This document shows, one piece after another, positions 455-52,943 of a DNA stretch of 64,000 nt. The position numbers and the translations under genes were made by a program. The notes below the pieces were generated by a model. The model made no database searches. It saw only the letters and a program-made list of their open reading frames with translations, and was not told where the DNA came from. The stretch lies in contig NZ_JAEFCA010000007.1 of NCBI RefSeq assembly GCF_016405855.1, positions 1-64,000 on the forward strand. Direction: 5' to 3'. The DNA is from Flavobacterium sp. IB48. GTDB lineage: Bacteria; Bacteroidota; Bacteroidia; Flavobacteriales; Flavobacteriaceae. Within the stretch, counting starts at the first letter, position 1, and every line of letters starts with the position of its first letter.

Positions 455-1423
455 CTAAGAAATGTAAATTTCTAAAATTGAAGCTTTTCCGCTCAAATTA
501 AATGCATTTATAGCAGCTGGAACCAAAACAGTATCTCCTTTTTTATAAGCTTGCTTGAATCCGTCATATTCAATTTCAAAATCACCTTCGATACACATAT
601 ATACTGTAAATGTTTCTCCATTTTTGGCAACTTCTAATTTATTTTCTAACGGAAGAAAATTCGTTGTAAAATATGGACAGTCTACAACAGTATTTGAGGT
701 ATTAACTTTTGTCTCGTATTTTTTCTGTGTATCTACTTTATTATAGTTAATTGCATCTAGAGCAAGATCTACGTGCAATTCTCTTTTATTTCCTTGCGCA
801 TCTACACGATCAAAATCATATAATCTATATGTAATATCAGAAGTCTGTTGAATTTCGGCAACAACCAAACCAGCTCCAATTGCGTGAACTGTTCCAGTTT
901 CTAAAAAGAAAACATCTCCAGCTTTTGCTTTTACATCATCTAAGATAGACACCAAAGTATTATCGTGTAAATGTTTCAAATATTCTTCTTTACTAGAATC
1001 TTCTTTAAAACCAACAATAATTCTAGCATCTGCATCGGCTTGCATTACATACCACATTTCGGTTTTACCAAATGAGTTGTGACGTTCTTTTGCCAACTTG
1101 TCGTTTGGATGCACTTGAATAGAAAGATCTTCTCTTGCATCTAGATATTTAAAAAGTAACGGAAATTGCTTTCCAAAACGCTCATAAACTTTAGTTCCTA
1201 AAATAGCATCTGGTGTTTCATCAATCAAATCCATTAAAGATTTTCCTTTTAAAACTCCATTTGCAACGACACTTATATCACCTTGTACAGTAGACAATTC
1301 CCAGCTTTCGCCAGTAATTTTAGAAACGATTGGTTTGTTTAGAATAGTTTTTAGTTTTTCTCCTCCCCAGATTCTTTCTTTCAAAATCGGTTCAAATTGC
1401 AAAGGGTATAAATTCTGACTCAT
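455..1423 (-). CDS. manA: Mannose-6-phosphate isomerase, type I
   Basis: Zinc-dependent cupin enzyme converting fructose-6-phosphate and mannose-6-phosphate, the entry to GDP-mannose, GDP-fucose and mannose-derived sugars. Visible metal-site motifs are QVHPND (His about 105), the KTEMW segment (Glu about 122) and TVHAIGAG (His about 180). The 322-residue length fits the short bacterial class I form. It is cytosolic, with no signal peptide. It is the fourth gene of a same-strand row after idi, the PTPS-family gene and bcp, with a 57-bp gap before it. Its product could feed the fucosylated and nonulosonate-containing glycans made by the locus on the right side of the window (inference). Confidence 0.93.
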   Translation of the reverse strand: MSQNLYPLQFEPILKERIWGGEKLKTILNKPIVSKITGESWELSTVQGDISVVANGVLKGKSLMDLIDETPDAILGTKVYERFGKQFPLLFKYLDAREDLSIQVHPNDKLAKERHNSFGKTEMWYVMQADADARIIVGFKEDSSKEEYLKHLHDNTLVSILDDVKAKAGDVFFLETGTVHAIGAGLVVAEIQQTSDITYRLYDFDRVDAQGNKRELHVDLALDAINYNKVDTQKKYETKVNTSNTVVDCPYFTTNFLPLENKLEVAKNGETFTVYMCIEGDFEIEYDGFKQAYKKGDTVLVPAAINAFNLSGKASILEIYIS

Positions 1424-37471: not shown

Positions 37472-38353
37472 TTATTTAGGAAAAAAGTCTTCTAAAATTA
37501 TTTCTGTAAATTTTTTAGCTCCTGCATCGTTCATGTGCGCACAAGAAGAAAAATTTTTATCATCATCAACTCTGTCTTCATAATTATAAATTTCTGGATA
37601 TAATAAATTTACTTTTTGAAAATAATCTTTTCCTATTAATTTGCTACATATTGGTGTCATGACAGGAATTAATCTGATATTATTTAATTTACAAATCCTT
37701 TTAATTTCCTCATAATATTTATTCTTTTGGGGAGGAAAAGTAAAATCTTCAAAATGTAGTTCTTCATTTTCAAATTTTGGTTCGTATCCTCCATATTGAA
37801 CATCTTTTGCTTTTTTATCCAATATGTAAAAAAACATCTGTCTAAACCCGATCTTTGCATCATATTTTAAATATCTATAAAATGGAATATAATATAGGCT
37901 ATTAAAATTCTCTAAGCTTTCATAGTGTTTTTTTATTGCAGGCGAACGATGTAAAAATGGTAAAAATTTCAGAATTGTACCTTCTGATTTTTTTTCTTCT
38001 GATCTTAATGTAATATCAACATCAATTATAACATTTTTGATTTTGTTTTTTTTCTCTAATAATAATTTCAAAACCAAATCTGATTCGAATAATTTAGATC
38101 CCGGCATTCCAAAGTTATATGTTTTCAACCCCCTCTCTTCAAACATCTGAGTTACGAAATGATTATTTGCTCTAGAAGAACCTAATATTACGACGTCATA
38201 TTCTTTTGGCTTGGAATTATATATCAACCCTATTTTATCCCTTTTGTTAGATTGAAGAAAAATAAACGAGTATGCTTGATCCAATATAAAGGCCAAAACG
38301 AAAACCAGAACTAAGATCTTTAATAAATAAAGCAGAAATTGTCGTTTTTTCAT
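37472..38353 (-). CDS. SGNH-like membrane-anchored protein, paralogue 2
   Basis: The 293-residue protein has one N-terminal membrane span (about 9-31) and a periplasmic SGNH-like domain. Block I is VILGSSRANNH (Ser59/60). The expected block V position reads SCAHMNDAGAKKFT. The His (273) is kept, but the Asp of DxxH is replaced by Ser (270). It is closely related to the neighbouring gene at 38375. With the MBOAT gene it suggests an AlgI/AlgX- or DltB/DltD-like O-acylation module on glycans in the periplasm. It could be a helper rather than an esterase. Confidence 0.8.
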   Translation of the reverse strand: MKKRQFLLYLLKILVLVFVLAFILDQAYSFIFLQSNKRDKIGLIYNSKPKEYDVVILGSSRANNHFVTQMFEERGLKTYNFGMPGSKLFESDLVLKLLLEKKNKIKNVIIDVDITLRSEEKKSEGTILKFLPFLHRSPAIKKHYESLENFNSLYYIPFYRYLKYDAKIGFRQMFFYILDKKAKDVQYGGYEPKFENEELHFEDFTFPPQKNKYYEEIKRICKLNNIRLIPVMTPICSKLIGKDYFQKVNLLYPEIYNYEDRVDDDKNFSSCAHMNDAGAKKFTEIILEDFFPK

Positions 38354-38374
38354 AAAATAATTTAGCCTTTAATT

Positions 38375-39256
38375 TTATTTATTAAAAAAATCATAAATAA
38401 TTCTTGCTGTAAATAATTTTGCACCTTGATCTGTCATATGCCCGCAAGAAGAAAAATATTTATTTTCTATAACAACATTTTCATAATTATGAATTTCAGG
38501 ATACGCCTTTTTTAACTTATCAAAGTAATTCATTCCAACAACATTCTCGCACATTGGCGTCATAACAGCAATAAAATTGATGTCGTTCTTTTTGCAAATA
38601 TTTTTAATCTCTTCATAATATTTATTGTGTGGCAATGGCTTCAAATTGGCAATGTTATTTTTCATATTGCCGTTCTTATGCTTTTCCAAAGGGTAATATC
38701 CTAAATTATCTAGAGCATTAGTTTTTTCATTTTTAGCTATTTTATAAATCTCACGAAAACCAATTTTAGAATCAAATTTTATATATCTATAAAAAGGGAT
38801 GTAATACAATTCATTAAAGTATTTTTCTGTCGAAAATTGATCTTTTATGACTTTTGAACAATGAATATATGGCAGAAATTTTGCAGCAACTCCTTCAGAT
38901 TCCTGATCATTAGAAAGATTTAAATCGGCTTCGAGAATTAAATTTTTTATTTCATATTTTCTTTCTATCATTAATTTTAACATTAATGAAGCTTCAAATA
39001 AATGTCCGCCACTCATTCCGTAGTTAAACGTTTTTAATCCTTTATCTTCGAACATTTGAGAAACAAAATGGTTATTAGCTCTTGAAGAGCCTAAAATAAC
39101 CACATCATACTTTTTTGCTGTAGAATTGAAAACGGTTTCTATTTTTCCACGATTTTTGGACTGTATAAAAGCATAAGTATACAATCCGTCCAAAAGAACT
39201 GCTATCACAGCTGTTAAAAGAAAAATTCCTAATATGTACAATAAAAACTTCTTCAT
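38375..39256 (-). CDS. SGNH-like membrane-anchored protein, paralogue 1
   Basis: It is 293 residues long, identical in length and similar throughout to the next gene (37472-38353). Both have VILGSSRANNHFV after a single N-terminal span and a CxHMxDxGAK block near the end. Here it is SSCGHMTDQGAKLFT, again with Ser in place of the Asp of DxxH. It overlaps the MBOAT gene by one base, so it is the direct partner of that O-acyltransferase. The paralogue pair looks like a tandem duplication that has diverged. Confidence 0.82.
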   Translation of the reverse strand: MKKFLLYILGIFLLTAVIAVLLDGLYTYAFIQSKNRGKIETVFNSTAKKYDVVILGSSRANNHFVSQMFEDKGLKTFNYGMSGGHLFEASLMLKLMIERKYEIKNLILEADLNLSNDQESEGVAAKFLPYIHCSKVIKDQFSTEKYFNELYYIPFYRYIKFDSKIGFREIYKIAKNEKTNALDNLGYYPLEKHKNGNMKNNIANLKPLPHNKYYEEIKNICKKNDINFIAVMTPMCENVVGMNYFDKLKKAYPEIHNYENVVIENKYFSSCGHMTDQGAKLFTARIIYDFFNK

Positions 39257-40689
39257 TAAAACTGGAAATAAATAAATTCTTTATAATCCGAATAAGTTCC
39301 AAGAGCTAGTATTGCCAAAATAGCCAATGCCATTTTCAAAAAACTTCTTTTTCCAGAAATTGGTTCTACTTTAGTTTTATTATTCCATTCTACTAAAACA
39401 AACAGACCAATCATCAATAGTAATTCATAATTATATCGTTCGTTATCTAAATATTGAGGGCTAAACTCGCCGTTAGTAAATATTCTTTTTAGATACAAAA
39501 CAGCATCTGTAATGGTTTTTGCTCTAAAAAACACCCAAGCAATACAAGTCAATAAAAATGTTGTTAGAATACTAAACAATACTTTGACAGAACCTAGATT
39601 CCATTTTAGAATTATAGAATCCATATTATTTCTATTACTATTTGAAATCAATAGTGGAAGGAAATAAACAGCATTTATAAATCCCCAAACAATATATGTC
39701 CAGTTGGCTCCATGCCAGAATCCACTAACAACAAAAATGATAAATGTATTTCGGATTTTCATCCAAAGTCCACCTTTGCTTCCACCTAGAGGAATATATA
39801 AATAATCTCTAAACCAAGAAGAAAGTGAGATATGCCAACGACGCCAAAACTCTGCTATATCTCTTGAAAAATATGGATAATTAAAGTTTCGTAATAAGTC
39901 TAAACCAAATAATTTAGAAACCCCTAGTGCGATATCTGAATATCCTGAGAAATCTCCGTAAATCTGAAACGCAAAATAAATTGCCCCCATAATTAATGAA
40001 AAAGAATTCATTGACTGATAATGATCAAAAATAGCATTAGCATAAACTGCACAAGTATCTGCAATAACCACTTTTTTAACAAGTCCCCAAACAATTTGGT
40101 AAATTCCTTCTTTTGCTTTTTCTAAATTAAACTCGCGCTTTTCTTTTAACTCTGGAAGTAAATGCGTTGCTCTTTCAATTGGTCCAGCAACTAAAAGAGG
40201 AAAGTAACTTACAAATAAAGAATAATCTATAAAATTATATTCTGCTTTAATTCTTTTATAATAAATATCAATTACATAAGATAATCCATGGAAAGTGTAA
40301 AATGAAATTCCAACAGGTAAAATTACATTCAATAACATTGGACTTACTTTAAAGCCTAAAGACGTAAACATTTCTGCAAATGAGCTTGCAAAGAAATTAT
40401 AATATTTAAAAATTCCTAAAAATCCTAAATTGATTATAATACTCAACCAAAACCAAAATTTTCGACTTTTTCCCGAATTACTTTTCTCGATTTGAATTCC
40501 TGTGAAATAATCTAAAAATGTTGAAAAAACTAGCAGAAATAGAAATCTCCAATCCCAACAAGAATAGAAATAATAGCTTGCAACAATTAATAAAGCATTT
40601 TGGGTACTTTTGGTTTTATTGAAAATAAACCAATATAGAAAAAAAACAATTGGCAAAAAGATGGCAAATGCCAGCGAGTTAAAGAACAT
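39256..40689 (-). CDS. MBOAT-family membrane O-acyltransferase (AlgI/DltB-like)
   Basis: Passes acyl groups, most often acetyl, across the inner membrane for attachment to polysaccharide. It has about 10-11 spans over 477 residues. Family hallmarks are FWRRWHISLSSWFRDYLYIP (about 281-300) and the catalytic SGFWHGANWTY with His326. Length and the C-terminal part fit AlgI/PatA more than eukaryotic MBOATs. The two SGNH-like genes follow directly with a one-base overlap, so they are the likely acyl-transfer partners. Confidence 0.93.
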   Translation of the reverse strand: MFFNSLAFAIFLPIVFFLYWFIFNKTKSTQNALLIVASYYFYSCWDWRFLFLLVFSTFLDYFTGIQIEKSNSGKSRKFWFWLSIIINLGFLGIFKYYNFFASSFAEMFTSLGFKVSPMLLNVILPVGISFYTFHGLSYVIDIYYKRIKAEYNFIDYSLFVSYFPLLVAGPIERATHLLPELKEKREFNLEKAKEGIYQIVWGLVKKVVIADTCAVYANAIFDHYQSMNSFSLIMGAIYFAFQIYGDFSGYSDIALGVSKLFGLDLLRNFNYPYFSRDIAEFWRRWHISLSSWFRDYLYIPLGGSKGGLWMKIRNTFIIFVVSGFWHGANWTYIVWGFINAVYFLPLLISNSNRNNMDSIILKWNLGSVKVLFSILTTFLLTCIAWVFFRAKTITDAVLYLKRIFTNGEFSPQYLDNERYNYELLLMIGLFVLVEWNNKTKVEPISGKRSFLKMALAILAILALGTYSDYKEFIYFQF

Positions 40690-40695
40690 AAATAT

Positions 40696-42093
40696 CTACT
40701 TTTTTAAAATGCAGTTTAAACTTTTCCAAATTTTTTCAGATGCTTGAGTAGGATTTGGTCCAACAATAATCTCAAACCACTTTTTACTGTCTTTAACACT
40801 TGAAATTTTTCCGTCAATAATATCTTTAACCATATTGGTTAGATCTTTTTTATCTCTTATCCATAAAGCAGCCTCCTCTGAGGGTTTTGATCTAAAATGA
40901 ATGTATTTATAATTTTGCCCAATATCACGAATTCCCTTTCTAAGTTGTGGCTGTTCATAGTCAAAAAACAAGCAAGATTTATCGTGCGCAGAAAAATCAA
41001 ATACCATTGATGAAGCTATATTACCAACAAATTCTGTGTATTCACAAATATTTGCCTGCAATGCAAAATCTTCTTTTGTCGGCATAATTTCATTCCAACT
41101 TTCCCCAACTGGACTCCATAACGGATCAATGCTTACAATAACATCTTGATATTTCTTCAAAACCTCATCATAACGATCTGTAAAGTCTACTGGGCATTTT
41201 CGGTAAATGACACCTAAAGAATATCCGTTTTGGTTTAATTCTCTAACTGATAATGCTAAATCTTCTAAATAGTATTGATCTAAAGGAGATGTAACTATAT
41301 CATCACCAGAATAACAAATATATTTTTTGTTTAAGTCGAGATCATGTGAATTATAAAATTCTTCTTTTGATTGTAAAATTGTTTTATCAAAATGACTTTC
41401 GAATTGAGGCGTTCCTGTTACAAAAATCTGGTTTTCTTTCACATAAGGACAATACATTAAAACCTCTTTTTTCATGTGTTCGCTCCACACAAAATAATAA
41501 TCAGTTTCGACTAGCGTCGTTGCTTTAGGAAGATTATCCCAAGAAAAGATAAAAGTTCCTGTTGGAATTCCTAAGTCTTGTGCTGCTAAAATAGAAGCAA
41601 TTGCCTGCGTTGGACGCTGATTGGTGCAAAAAACAAAATCTGGTTTGTATTTTTCTAATTGTCTTTTACTTTCTTTGTATTTACTTGTAGTTCGCTCGCC
41701 TTTTTTTATTTGCTTTCTAACAAATTTGATTCCTTTTTCGTTAGATCCAAAAGTTGTCAAGGCATCAACCATTAAACTTTTAGCAAGGTTAGCAACTCCT
41801 TTATAAGATTGCGGAAAATTATAGGTATTGTAAACCACCTCTTTAAATTTCTTATCAAAGAAATTTAATTCCATTCTTTTACGCGCACGGCTATAAACTG
41901 TTGTTAACGGATGTAGTGATTTTTCTTGAATTTTTAATTCTTCAAAACCTAGTTTCTCCTTAATCGAAAATGGAGTGTTGTTCCAATATGTAATATCGAA
42001 ATCATTTTGTTCTCCAATTTCTTTAAAAGAGGTTAAGGCAAAATTTCGAAGTCCAACACCATCAGGCAAAAAAATAAATATGTTTTTTTTCAT
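40696..42093 (-). CDS. Putative GT-B glycosyltransferase, nonulosonate region
   Basis: A 465-residue soluble protein. The fold suggested by ATP/UDP-type strand patterns (KPDFVFCTNQRP, GTFIFSWDNLPK, IFVTGTPQFESHF) resembles UDP-glycosyltransferase/GT-B proteins of LPS and capsule loci. I cannot assign a CAZy family. It lies 95 bp downstream of the neuB-like gene and 6 bp upstream of MBOAT. One plausible role is transferring the nonulosonic acid, but that is inference from position. Confidence 0.6.
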   Translation of the reverse strand: MKKNIFIFLPDGVGLRNFALTSFKEIGEQNDFDITYWNNTPFSIKEKLGFEELKIQEKSLHPLTTVYSRARKRMELNFFDKKFKEVVYNTYNFPQSYKGVANLAKSLMVDALTTFGSNEKGIKFVRKQIKKGERTTSKYKESKRQLEKYKPDFVFCTNQRPTQAIASILAAQDLGIPTGTFIFSWDNLPKATTLVETDYYFVWSEHMKKEVLMYCPYVKENQIFVTGTPQFESHFDKTILQSKEEFYNSHDLDLNKKYICYSGDDIVTSPLDQYYLEDLALSVRELNQNGYSLGVIYRKCPVDFTDRYDEVLKKYQDVIVSIDPLWSPVGESWNEIMPTKEDFALQANICEYTEFVGNIASSMVFDFSAHDKSCLFFDYEQPQLRKGIRDIGQNYKYIHFRSKPSEEAALWIRDKKDLTNMVKDIIDGKISSVKDSKKWFEIIVGPNPTQASEKIWKSLNCILKK

Positions 42094-42188: not shown

Positions 42189-43070
42189 TTAAGCTTGTAC
42201 TTTTTTGTTTTTTAGTTTGTCTCTTTGAATTTGTTCGATTGGCAAAATATCGGTAGACTTAAAATTCAACGCTTGATAAACCGCCTCAAGATCACGAGTA
42301 AGTTTGCGTAAACCCATTGGTTCTAATGAAGCAGCATGATCTGTACCTTTCCAAGTTCTGTCTAGGGTATAATGCCTTTCGATAATATTAGCTCCTAAAG
42401 TATAAGCCGCTATATCTACAGCAATTCCTAAATGATGACCAGAAAAACCTATATGCTTTACCAAATGCCCATACTTTTGCTGTAGGATAGTAATATCTAA
42501 AAGGCAAACATCCTCAAAAGGAACTGGATAACCTGATGTACAATTATATAAAACTAAATCTTGGTTTCTTTCTTTTTTAGTAAAAAATTCAACCAAAGTA
42601 TCTGTCTCATCTTTAGTTGTCATTCCTGTAGAAATATGAATTTCTCCTGAATAATTTTCGCTAAGCCATTCCAACATTTCAAAATTGTTGTTGCAAGCAG
42701 ATGGTATTTTAATAAAATCTGGATTTAATGATGCGATTTCTTTTGCTGAAGTTGTATCCCAAACCGATGTAGAATATATAATTCCGATTTCTTCGCAATA
42801 TGATTTTAACTCTCTATGCTGTTCAACATCAAATTCTAAGAACTCCCTATGTGCACCATAAGTTTCTCCATAAGAATTAGAAGCATTTGGATGCGGAGCA
42901 TAATATTGTTCCTCTGTTAGAAGTTCTTTATTATTACGCTTTTGGAATTTTACTGCATCTGCGTTTCCGAAGATTTTTGCAATTTTAATTAATTCCTTTG
43001 CTATTTCCATTTCGCCTTTATGATTACATCCAATTTCTGCAATCACATAAGGTTTTTTAAATTCCTTCAT
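42189..43070 (-). CDS. NeuB-family nonulosonic acid synthase, lacking the SAF domain
   Basis: Condenses phosphoenolpyruvate with a six-carbon aldose to a nine-carbon acid. The TIM-barrel core is clear: VIAEIGCNHKGEMEIAKEL, AVKFQKRNN, the FIKIPSACNNN region, HISTGMT and GFSGHHLG. Typical bacterial NeuB proteins are about 345-350 aa with a C-terminal SAF (antifreeze-like) domain that covers the active site of the partner subunit. This one stops at 293, just after the RDKLK element, and has no SAF part. The stop is natural, and the gene overlaps the fused cytidylyltransferase gene by 14 bp. Substrate may be mannose-6-phosphate (KDN route) or ManNAc-6-phosphate. Confidence 0.86.
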   Translation of the reverse strand: MKEFKKPYVIAEIGCNHKGEMEIAKELIKIAKIFGNADAVKFQKRNNKELLTEEQYYAPHPNASNSYGETYGAHREFLEFDVEQHRELKSYCEEIGIIYSTSVWDTTSAKEIASLNPDFIKIPSACNNNFEMLEWLSENYSGEIHISTGMTTKDETDTLVEFFTKKERNQDLVLYNCTSGYPVPFEDVCLLDITILQQKYGHLVKHIGFSGHHLGIAVDIAAYTLGANIIERHYTLDRTWKGTDHAASLEPMGLRKLTRDLEAVYQALNFKSTDILPIEQIQRDKLKNKKVQA

Positions 43071-44223
43071 AACGTTTATTGTACTTTAATAAAATTTCAC
43101 AAGTTTCTCGTATTGCTCCACCTCCAGATTGGTGTGTTAAAACATAATCTGCATTTGCTTTTACAATATCTGTTGCATCAGCTGGTGCGAAAGACCATCC
43201 AACACTGCAAATATTAGTCAAATCATTTACGTCATCACCCACGTAGGAAACGGCGCCAAAACTACTATTTCTCTCTGAAAGAAAATGTGTTAAAAAGGAA
43301 AATTTATCTTTTACTCCTAAAAATATATGTTTAATCTGCAATTTCTTCATTCTCTGCGCAACTAATTCAGAATTTTCTGAAGTCATAACTACAACTTCAA
43401 CATTATTCTGTCTTAAAATTTCCAAGCCCATTCCGTCGCGCATGTCAAACTTTTTAGCCATTTCGCCATTGGCATCATAATAGACGCATCCATCTGTAAA
43501 AACGCCATCGACATCTAAAACTAAATAATCTATTCTTTGGTGCAATTTTTGTTTTTTCTGACGATCTCCTAAAAGTTTTTCAATAATATCCCAATCAGAT
43601 AAACTATCAATTTCTACAAGAGATTCTTCTGCCATTTTTACCAAGCCAATAGAACCGCTTACTCTATTTTTCGAATTTAAGAAAGCGTCTTTTGTGGTAA
43701 CATAAACAGCTCCATTTTCAATCAATAATCCATCAAAATCTTGGCGTCTTGGTCTTTTAAAAACATCATAATTACTTGGAGTTCCATTTGAATTCCAAAT
43801 AAAACGGTGTGTATTGACAACAGTCAAAGCCGATTCTTTTTTATTGATAAGGATTTCGTTTAATGCAGTATTAATATCTTGGGCTTTTGTCATTGGAGAA
43901 GTTGCCTGCAATAAGCACAGCACATCAAAATCGTTTTTTACCAATGTTGCAAATTCCAGCATGGCGCTTTCTGTAGATGCGGTGTCAGAAGCATTTTCGT
44001 CATTCCTTAAGAGCGTCTTTACTTTTGGAGTCCAAAAATATTCTCTCTTGATATAATCAATAATATCTTGATCGTCTGTAAAAACATAAACCTCATCTAA
44101 TTCTGAGAAAATAGCTTCTGTTAAAACCCATGAAAAAAGTGGTCTTCCAAGCATTTTCTTTTTATTTTTCCCAGGAATTCCTTTTGAATTTTTACGAAGT
44201 GGAATTATAGCGGTTTTTTTCAT
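43057..44223 (-). CDS. Fused CMP-nonulosonate cytidylyltransferase and HAD (KdsC-like) phosphatase
   Basis: Residues 1-225 are a NeuA-type cytidylyltransferase (IIPLRKNSKGIPGKNKKK, then LCLLQATSPMTKAQD) that activates the acid with CTP. From about 229 a KdsC-like HAD domain follows: YLVLDVDGVFTDGC (nucleophile Asp in DVD), MTSENS, GVKDKFSF with Lys, and YVGDDVNDL. The fusion suggests a product that is made as a 9-phosphate and must be dephosphorylated before activation. In Bacteroides thetaiotaomicron the KDN route uses separate enzymes for these steps. The gene is first in the nonulosonate pair. Confidence 0.9.
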   Translation of the reverse strand: MKKTAIIPLRKNSKGIPGKNKKKMLGRPLFSWVLTEAIFSELDEVYVFTDDQDIIDYIKREYFWTPKVKTLLRNDENASDTASTESAMLEFATLVKNDFDVLCLLQATSPMTKAQDINTALNEILINKKESALTVVNTHRFIWNSNGTPSNYDVFKRPRRQDFDGLLIENGAVYVTTKDAFLNSKNRVSGSIGLVKMAEESLVEIDSLSDWDIIEKLLGDRQKKQKLHQRIDYLVLDVDGVFTDGCVYYDANGEMAKKFDMRDGMGLEILRQNNVEVVVMTSENSELVAQRMKKLQIKHIFLGVKDKFSFLTHFLSERNSSFGAVSYVGDDVNDLTNICSVGWSFAPADATDIVKANADYVLTHQSGGGAIRETCEILLKYNKRYEGI

Positions 44224-51716: not shown

Positions 51717-52943
51717 TTAATAAATCCATTCTGTTTTTGCATAAGTTGAGCCCCATCCCTTTTTCGGACCGATTACATTTTCATCATCCCAAAAAACATT
51801 AAATAGTACTGCATCTTCGAGAATATCCAAGTCAAATGCTCCATTACTCAAATATAATGATAGCGAATAATTTCCTGGATTAAGTGGCAAATGATCAATT
51901 TGAACGCCAATTTTGTTCTGGCCTTGATTAATTGTTAAATTTTGTCCATACTGATGCATATTGGCTGCCATAACAGCCTGACCACTTTCATTTTTAATTA
52001 AATATCCTAACGAGGCACGAGTCAATTCACTATTGTTAAAATATATTGAAAAGCTAAATTGTCTACCTGAAAAAATTTGAGTTTTCTCTGGCATTTCAAT
52101 ATTAGTAATTACCTTACCTTCATTTTTTTTAATCACTAATTCTTCAGAAGCGCTAGAATCTAAATAACTATTTATCACGGTGTCTGTGTCAGAAATCATT
52201 TGAATTGTACCATTGTTAAGCAATATTGTTTTCAAACATAATGCTCGAATAGCAGCTAAATCATGGCTCACAAACAAAACCGTTCTTCCTTCGCCACTTG
52301 CAATATCTTTCATTTTTCCAATAGCTTTTTTTTGAAATTCTGCGTCTCCCACGGCAAGTACTTCGTCCACAATAAGAATCTCAGGCTCTAAAAATGCAGC
52401 GACTGCAAAAGCCAAACGAACAGTCATACCCGAGCTGTATCTTTTTACAGGAGTATCTATATAACGTTCGCAACCAGAAAACTCAATGATTTCATCAAGC
52501 TTTGAAGTAATTTCCTTTTTGGTCATTCCTAAAATAGCTCCATTAAGAAAAATATTTTCTCTTCCTGTCATCTCTCCGTTAAACCCTGTTCCAACTTCTA
52601 GCAAAGAAGCGATACGCCCTCGTGATTTTATATTACCTGTTGTTGGAGCCGTAACTTTTGAAAGTATTTTTAAAAGCGTAGATTTTCCTGCTCCATTTTT
52701 TCCAATAATTCCTAAAACTTCTCCTCTTTCAACCTCAAAGTTTATATCCTGTAAAGCCCAAACGTAATCTGAAGTTCCTTTTGTAGAGCGATCGTTGGTA
52801 TCACCAATTTTTAGATATGGATTTTCTTTTCCTCTAATTTTATGCCACCATCGATTCAAATCATGGCTTAAAGTACCTGTACCGACTTGACCTAAGCGGT
52901 ATTGTTTAGAAATATTTTCGGCCTTTAATATTATATCTTTCAT
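51717..52943 (-). CDS. wzt: Polysaccharide ABC exporter ATP-binding protein (Wzt-like) with C-terminal domain
   Basis: The ATPase domain has Walker A GIIGKNGAGKSTLLKIL, signature RYSSGMTVRLAFAVAAFL and Walker B EILIVDEVLAVGD. It is longer than a plain ATPase (408 aa): residues of about 265-408 form a Wzt_C-like carbohydrate-binding beta-sandwich. Such a domain selects finished chains with a defined non-reducing end. The gene abuts the permease gene without a gap. Confidence 0.93.
   Translation of the reverse strand: MKDIILKAENISKQYRLGQVGTGTLSHDLNRWWHKIRGKENPYLKIGDTNDRSTKGTSDYVWALQDINFEVERGEVLGIIGKNGAGKSTLLKILSKVTAPTTGNIKSRGRIASLLEVGTGFNGEMTGRENIFLNGAILGMTKKEITSKLDEIIEFSGCERYIDTPVKRYSSGMTVRLAFAVAAFLEPEILIVDEVLAVGDAEFQKKAIGKMKDIASGEGRTVLFVSHDLAAIRALCLKTILLNNGTIQMISDTDTVINSYLDSSASEELVIKKNEGKVITNIEMPEKTQIFSGRQFSFSIYFNNSELTRASLGYLIKNESGQAVMAANMHQYGQNLTINQGQNKIGVQIDHLPLNPGNYSLSLYLSNGAFDLDILEDAVLFNVFWDDENVIGPKKGWGSTYAKTEWIY

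Follow-up and report, generated by a model that had tools for sequence, protein, structure and literature searches.

We conclude, with a probability of roughly 0.8, that two overlapping genes of Flavobacterium sp. IB48 encode a compact two-protein KDN pathway leading from mannose-6-phosphate to CMP-KDN, KDN being a sialic acid that lacks the customary nitrogen group. Domain composition, conservation, placement in trees and patterns of specificity residues are what the analysis establishes; the reactions, the use of mannose-6-phosphate and the transferase are inferred. The genes lie in the window, by which we mean the whole stretch of 64,000 nucleotides that was analysed (bases 1-64000 of its contig in a 5.6-Mb genome), and are listed with their neighbours in Table 1. 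In the proposed scheme a NeuB-family synthase would condense mannose-6-phosphate and phosphoenolpyruvate into KDN-9-phosphate, the C-terminal half of a fused protein would dephosphorylate this to KDN and its N-terminal half would couple KDN to CMP, after which CMP-KDN may go into a surface polysaccharide, perhaps by way of a 465-aa neighbour acting as putative transferase. The first-pass annotation had proposed the same succession of steps in two genes, and the synthase clade, AU tests and residues of the fusion all argue for it. The 9-phosphate route to KDN is favoured because the clade of the synthase is accompanied by a PpNeuA-like synthetase half with Arg187 and by a phosphatase half that possesses its aspartates and a Glu/Lys pair.

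Table 1. Features of the window discussed in the text
Feature	Coordinates	Strand	Basis
SAF-less NeuB-family synthase, predicted KDN-9-phosphate synthase, 293 aa	42189..43070	(-)	ORF, Pfam, fold model, tree
Fused CMP-nonulosonate (predicted CMP-Kdn) synthetase / nonulosonate-9-phosphate phosphatase, 388 aa	43057..44223	(-)	ORF, domain matches, fold model
Synthetase half of the fusion, residues about 1-222, Arg187 at N-acetyl-pocket position	43558..44223	(-)	PDB matches, alignment
KdsC-like HAD phosphatase half of the fusion, residues about 230-384; catalytic D237/D239, specificity pair E283/K294	43072..43536	(-)	profile matches, alignment
465-aa protein, candidate KDN transferase	40696..42093	(-)	weak likeness to glycosyltransferases only
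MBOAT O-acyltransferase, DltB-like; possible glycan acylation	39256..40689	(-)	PF03062
ABC transporter ATPase with Wzt C-terminal domain; polysaccharide export context	51717..52943	(-)	PF00005, PF14524
manA, mannose-6-phosphate isomerase	455..1423	(-)	TIGR00218 178.7 bits, cut-off 116.2

The reading frames of the pair overlap by 14 bases on the same strand, and chance is no issue for their domain matches, since the E-values are 3.5e-17, 2.5e-40 and 1.4e-68. The Pfam NeuB domain covers residues 27-269 of the synthase (231 bits), and no SAF domain was detected in this 293-aa protein by a Pfam scan at E<=10 that did find SAF in all four SAF-bearing controls (the PseI of the same genome, two synthases of the BT1714 type defined below and a canonical NeuB), in agreement with the first-pass annotation. 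NeuB measures 289-319 aa in all 80 named relatives, these being the best 80 of at least 567 in a scan of a genome collection; the closest of them belong to Flavobacterium (95% for NeuB), and the fusion is found beside NeuB in 79 of the 80 (in one of them cut by the contig start), the remaining one being that of F. covae, where it is split. Among 100 related genomes a full-length fusion occurs in 16, our own included (13 of 61 from the same genus and three others), and a NeuB of 290-293 aa is readable at 15 of these 16 loci (14 besides our own), the contig ending at the last. The notion that NeuB is a truncated or broken gene was rejected, because the next gene starts 95 bases downstream of its 3' end, because the short length is constant among these relatives and because the SAF controls work. 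The AlphaFold2 model of NeuB (pLDDT 93.7, pTM 0.90) has its best fold matches in Leptospira 6ncs (TM 0.81, 28% identity) and N. meningitidis NeuB. On the family models for N-acetylneuraminate synthase (TIGR03569, which furthermore requires the absent C-terminal SAF) and pseudaminate synthase PseI (TIGR03586) the protein scores 203 and 143.9 bits, under the respective cut-offs of 399.65 and 340.25. As side observations, the fusion of Flavobacterium covae is split into two reading frames (L071:4914-5968) next to a NeuB of normal length and that of F. columnare (L073) is whole, and a collection of viral contigs holds 287 relatives of the synthase; in the 80 viral loci examined (L121-L200) a fusion is found in two, and of the 84 frames that match, 80 measure 274-302 aa, which judged by length is the SAF-less size.

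The synthase tree comprises 52 rows, with a NeuB-SpsF protein omitted and three PDB rows being partial sequences, and compares PseI, canonical NeuB and phosphatase-linked synthases, no set in it being labelled as legionaminate synthases. Its human NANS row is a provisional sequence, and its 11 BT1714-type rows are synthases encoded near a phosphatase that scores above the NF058599 cut-off, the sequence of BT1714 itself, named as the B. thetaiotaomicron synthase (PMC6200933), not being among them. The SAF-less synthases, 14 rows including that of the window, form one clade (100/100), and a larger clade (99/93) unites them with human NANS (provisional sequence), the synthases of the BT1714 type and a second family linked to a phosphatase, leaving canonical NeuB, PseI, N. 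meningitidis NeuB and the long-branched Leptospira 6ncs outside. Within it the BT1714-type and the SAF-less synthases are separate clades, each at 100/100, and the NeuB of the window is not a member of the former; the nearest row outside the SAF-less clade is human NANS (provisional sequence), by a moderate link (93/87) with long branches. Grouping with pseudaminate synthases, which the first-pass annotation had named as the outcome speaking against its proposal, was not what this phylogeny returned, as the AU test rejects a union of the SAF-less group with PseI (p 0.002) and likewise with the set of canonical NeuB synthases and the N. meningitidis enzyme (p 0.028). NeuB is predicted to be a KDN-9-phosphate synthase that takes mannose-6-phosphate and phosphoenolpyruvate. 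A SAF-less NeuB together with the fusion had at first been read as the signature of a KDN type, and the clade and the residues bear this out; loss of SAF by itself was rejected as a marker of KDN, however, since both BT1714-type synthases scanned keep the domain and since SAF-less NeuB proteins exist elsewhere, namely in Leptospira 6ncs and in a second NeuB family (L300-L310, L312-L314). The latter, from the same phylum, is of SAF-less length (289-313 aa), SAF having been scanned for in L300 and found absent.

The tree also bears on the possibility that the pair serves an unphosphorylated route of legionaminate or pseudaminate type, with a phosphatase domain that is non-catalytic as in vertebrate CMAS. 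On the same contig beyond the window, about 27-36 kb from the pair, are found a SAF-bearing PseI and PseB- and PseC-like genes (the latter two identified by eye), so that a nonulosonate is probably made, and the C-domain of vertebrate CMAS is described as devoid of phosphatase activity (PMC8636478). The AU test nevertheless rejects a union of the synthase with PseI, a separate PseI is already present, and all 100 readable fusions retain the two catalytic aspartates, the nucleophile being missing from mouse CMAS, and we regard this route as the least probable of those considered. Because the PseI, PseB- and PseC-like genes share the contig with the pair, a second nonulosonate pathway is indeed likely to exist in the genome. 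Adjoining these genes is a 588-aa protein (L024:12835-14601, about 75.8-77.6 kb) in which a cytidylyltransferase half is combined with a divergent half that resembles NeuB (56.9 bits on the Pfam NeuB model).

The neighbour of NeuB joins a cytidylyltransferase, with CTP_transf_3 (Pfam) at residues 5-171, to a KdsC-like phosphatase, just as the first-pass annotation had it, and the AlphaFold2 model of the 388-aa fusion has a pLDDT of 87.5 and a pTM of 0.85. The top PDB match of the synthetase half is PpNeuA (9t4z), which we take to be the CMP-Kdn synthetase of the Prymnesium parvum study cited below, both by sequence (148 bits, compared with 88 for mouse CMAS and 46 for N. meningitidis) and by fold (40% identity, TM to target 0.88), and the two share 42% identity over 210 aligned positions. 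The P. parvum synthetase turned over Kdn and not Neu5Ac (PMC6200933). The pocket receiving the N-acetyl methyl group is described as hydrophobic and is formed by Tyr179, Phe192 and Phe193 in N. meningitidis and by Ile124, Tyr227 and Leu228 in mouse (PMC2901514). At or beside this pocket the fusions carry Arg187, which is present in all 102 readable fusions (of 103 aligned rows, a fragment from F. covae has no letter there) and in PpNeuA; an arginine is found there in none of five other synthetases (mouse, N. meningitidis, Vibrio, Aeromonas and the canonical enzyme of G098), the alignment being clear between fusions and PpNeuA and possibly shifted by one or two positions in the more remote ones. 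A CMP-Kdn synthetase was to be recognised by PpNeuA as its closest solved relative and by an arginine at the N-acetyl pocket, and the fusion has both. In a synthetase tree of 26 rows, a 99/99 branch divides two sets, one holding the fusions together with PpNeuA, mouse CMAS and four rows from viral contigs, the other N. meningitidis, Vibrio, Aeromonas, the G098 canonical enzyme and G339; next to the fusions, PpNeuA and mouse CMAS form a pair (90/87). The synthetase half is predicted to activate KDN rather than Neu5Ac.

A related possibility is a 9-phosphate route to Neu5Ac, in which NeuB would take ManNAc-6-phosphate, as human NANS can, and the fusion would make CMP-Neu5Ac. The absence of SAF from NeuB speaks against it; the SAF of N. 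meningitidis NeuB carries Arg314, which contacts the N-acetyl group. Models for substrate supply were scanned in 22 fusion-bearing genomes, and counting matches over cut-off, NanE is found in none, NeuC in four and an AGE-family epimerase in eight, leaving ten with none of the three (G031, G051, G012, G029, G025, G002, G059, G070, G093 and G166), five of which have matches below cut-off (NanE in G012 with 19 of 27 bits, AGE in G002 and G059 with about 19 of 23.4 bits, and NeuC in G025 and G166 with 97 and 101 of 235.9 bits). Two AGE-family epimerases are found in our own genome, so that ManNAc is possible there, and the absence of NeuC from the window, noted at first pass, held and extends to the whole genome (best match 89.5 bits, cut-off 235.9). 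For the human enzyme, Table 2 of PMC6200933 gives Km values with Man-6-P and with ManNAc-6-P, and human NANS (provisional sequence) is also the nearest row outside the SAF-less clade, which lends the Neu5Ac route some credit, but with Arg187 placed at the N-acetyl pocket just like the arginine of PpNeuA, Neu5Ac not being converted by the P. parvum synthetase (PMC6200933), and with the scarcity of epimerases just described, we consider it unlikely. As for mannose-6-phosphate, manA does lie at the left end of the window, as had been pointed out, but its membership of the KDN unit is not supported: it is an ordinary gene 41 kb away, and the manA model was matched in 16 of the 22 fusion genomes and not in the other six, where other isomerases may serve.

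The phosphatase half of the fusion apparently still works, as judged from its residues. All 100 readable fusions have the two catalytic aspartates as well as the motif lysine, and all but G098, which has GND, show the GDD motif; the aspartates are likewise found in 12 of 12 standalone relatives. The reference here is BT1713, presumably the phosphatase of the B. thetaiotaomicron KDN pathway and the protein of PDB 3e81, whose Glu56/Lys67 we take to be the specificity pair of this KDN-9-phosphate phosphatase; the PDB variants 4hgq and 4hgr depart from 3e81 at these very places. The pair occurs in all 100 readable fusions and all 12 standalone relatives and in none of 22 Bacteroidota KdsC proteins; L020 and L021 were set apart from these controls because they score 62 and 84 bits against the genome's own KdsC (the others 185-370) and both carry the Glu/Lys pair, and counting them would give 2 of 24. 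The alignment held 101 fusion rows, and L107, which starts at a contig edge and lost its HAD part in trimming, shows aspartates and Glu/Lys pair when read by eye. Fusion rows are not to be equated with independent genomes, since 7 of the 15 rows outside the named relatives duplicate a named row and the 101 rows amount to 94 distinct C-terminal ends.

It counts against the KDN reading that the half scores about equally on the profile models for KDN-9-phosphate phosphatase and KdsC. It reaches 136.1 bits on the former (NF058599, curated cut-off 180) and 138.1 on the latter (NF007019, KDO-8-P phosphatase, cut-off 208), in both cases below, and passes the broader KdsC-type C0 subfamily model TIGR01670 with 136.4 bits (cut-off 106.95). 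A separate KdsC-like phosphatase on another contig of the genome, 31% identical to the fused half, scores 99.7 bits on NF058599 and, likewise below cut-off, 148.8 on NF007019. Of other proteins scored on NF058599, the fused one from G369 (190.4 and 192.7 in two scans) and a standalone one from G339 (185.4) pass and a fused one from G166 (174.5) fails. G369, a genome of the same family, has the same two genes, with PpNeuA and 3e81 as best PDB matches of the synthetase and phosphatase halves; in G339, which is of the same class, the passing phosphatase lies 2.5 kb from a SAF-less synthase, and the synthetase, long-branched, is without the arginine and falls among the canonical enzymes. As a side observation, a standalone KdsC-like phosphatase is found near the NeuB of the second family in 10 of 14 loci, and the Glu/Lys pair is present in all 12 phosphatases examined from these ten loci and from L241 and L242; in L241 (4811-6238, G211) HAD and then NeuB form one 475-aa protein, the phosphatase being fused to the synthase and not to the synthetase.

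In the HAD tree the fusions are parted from Bacteroidota KdsC (100/100), and those of Flavobacterium have no secure grouping with BT1713; three proteobacterial KdsC proteins lie on the fusions' side, and the HAD half of the G098 fusion groups with them (87/96). A single origin of the fusions is unsupported, as their HAD halves are not one clade and that of the synthetase halves reaches only 80/82. The idea that vertebrate CMAS descended from these fusions was likewise dropped, since the C-domain of mouse CMAS, on a long branch and according to the alignment without the catalytic nucleophile, groups (99/99) with phosphatases of the second NeuB family and not with the fusions. That synthase and phosphatase stand apart from characterised types in the trees could also suggest a 9-phosphate route from another hexose-6-phosphate to a nonulosonate other than KDN or Neu5Ac, but the phosphorylated substrates listed for characterised relatives are mannose-6-P and ManNAc-6-P (Table 2, PMC6200933) and the synthetase half is nearest to a Kdn-specific enzyme, which makes such a product very unlikely.

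The surroundings of the pair encode several glycosyltransferases and an MBOAT protein, and also the ATPase of an ABC exporter, which carries a C-terminal Wzt domain. The 465-aa protein scores 40.2 bits on the NCBIfam BFO_1060 glycosyltransferase model (cut-off 200) and matches Pfam MGDG_synth below cut-off (E 0.0035), and a profile search gave no PDB relative of it. In 69 of the 80 named loci a relative of this protein follows NeuB within 4.5 kb on its downstream side, and 44 of the 80 have a relative of the MBOAT protein, which scores 152 bits on TIGR04091 (cut-off 375), both counts referring to the best 80 of at least 567. After the MBOAT gene, at 37472-39256, are two similar tandem 293-aa proteins with no Pfam match and, by eye, an SGNH-like motif, which may be an acyl-transfer partner. 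In 29 of the same best 80 of at least 567 loci a polysaccharide pyruvyltransferase-like gene is found (PF04230; L027:3055-3876 and relatives), and in L034-L036 a sulfotransferase-like gene adjoins the fusion (PF00685 in L034).

Two-domain bacterial synthetases and KDN pathways have already been published, but in the open-licence literature we found neither a description of the SAF-less synthase class with a fused phosphatase having intact catalytic residues nor a paper on these flavobacterial genes. A wider proposal, on which we are evenly divided, is that Flavobacteriia widely make KDN, that their synthase class lost SAF because its substrate has no N-acetyl group and became the partner of a bifunctional phosphatase/synthetase, between whose halves KDN is passed, and that a layout like that of vertebrate CMAS arose separately, possibly more than once, with both halves working. 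If true, Flavobacteriia, including the fish-associated F. columnare and F. covae, would commonly carry KDN as a surface sugar, made from mannose-6-phosphate with two proteins instead of three, and the pair would offer a two-protein bench route to CMP-KDN. It would also allow a clean test of the role of the SAF domain in sialic acid synthases. Vertebrate CMP-sialic acid synthetase has a phosphatase-like domain whose significance is described as unknown (PMC8636478), and the fusion furthermore provides a bacterial counterpart of this domain with catalytic residues intact.

Compared with known systems, NeuB resembles Leptospira NeuB 6ncs, its best fold match, in being a SAF-less barrel, there in a 290-aa chain, but 6ncs is only 28% identical and falls on a long branch outside the phosphatase-linked clade. 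Vertebrate NANS provides the nearest synthase row outside the SAF-less clade (provisional sequence); it is longer, with a C-terminal SAF region. The B. thetaiotaomicron KDN pathway shares the 9-phosphate logic, the catalytic aspartates of the phosphatase and its Glu/Lys pair, but its phosphatase is a separate gene and BT1714-type synthases keep SAF (2 of 2 scanned) and form a clade of their own. The Kdn pathway of P. parvum has in 9t4z the nearest solved relative of the synthetase half, with the same arginine, but in this eukaryote the synthetase has a putative C-terminal transmembrane domain and no phosphatase was found in the transcriptome (PMC6200933). Vertebrate CMAS, finally, has the identical order of two domains, but the C-domain of the mouse enzyme has, unlike the fusions, lost the nucleophile and groups with another phosphatase family.
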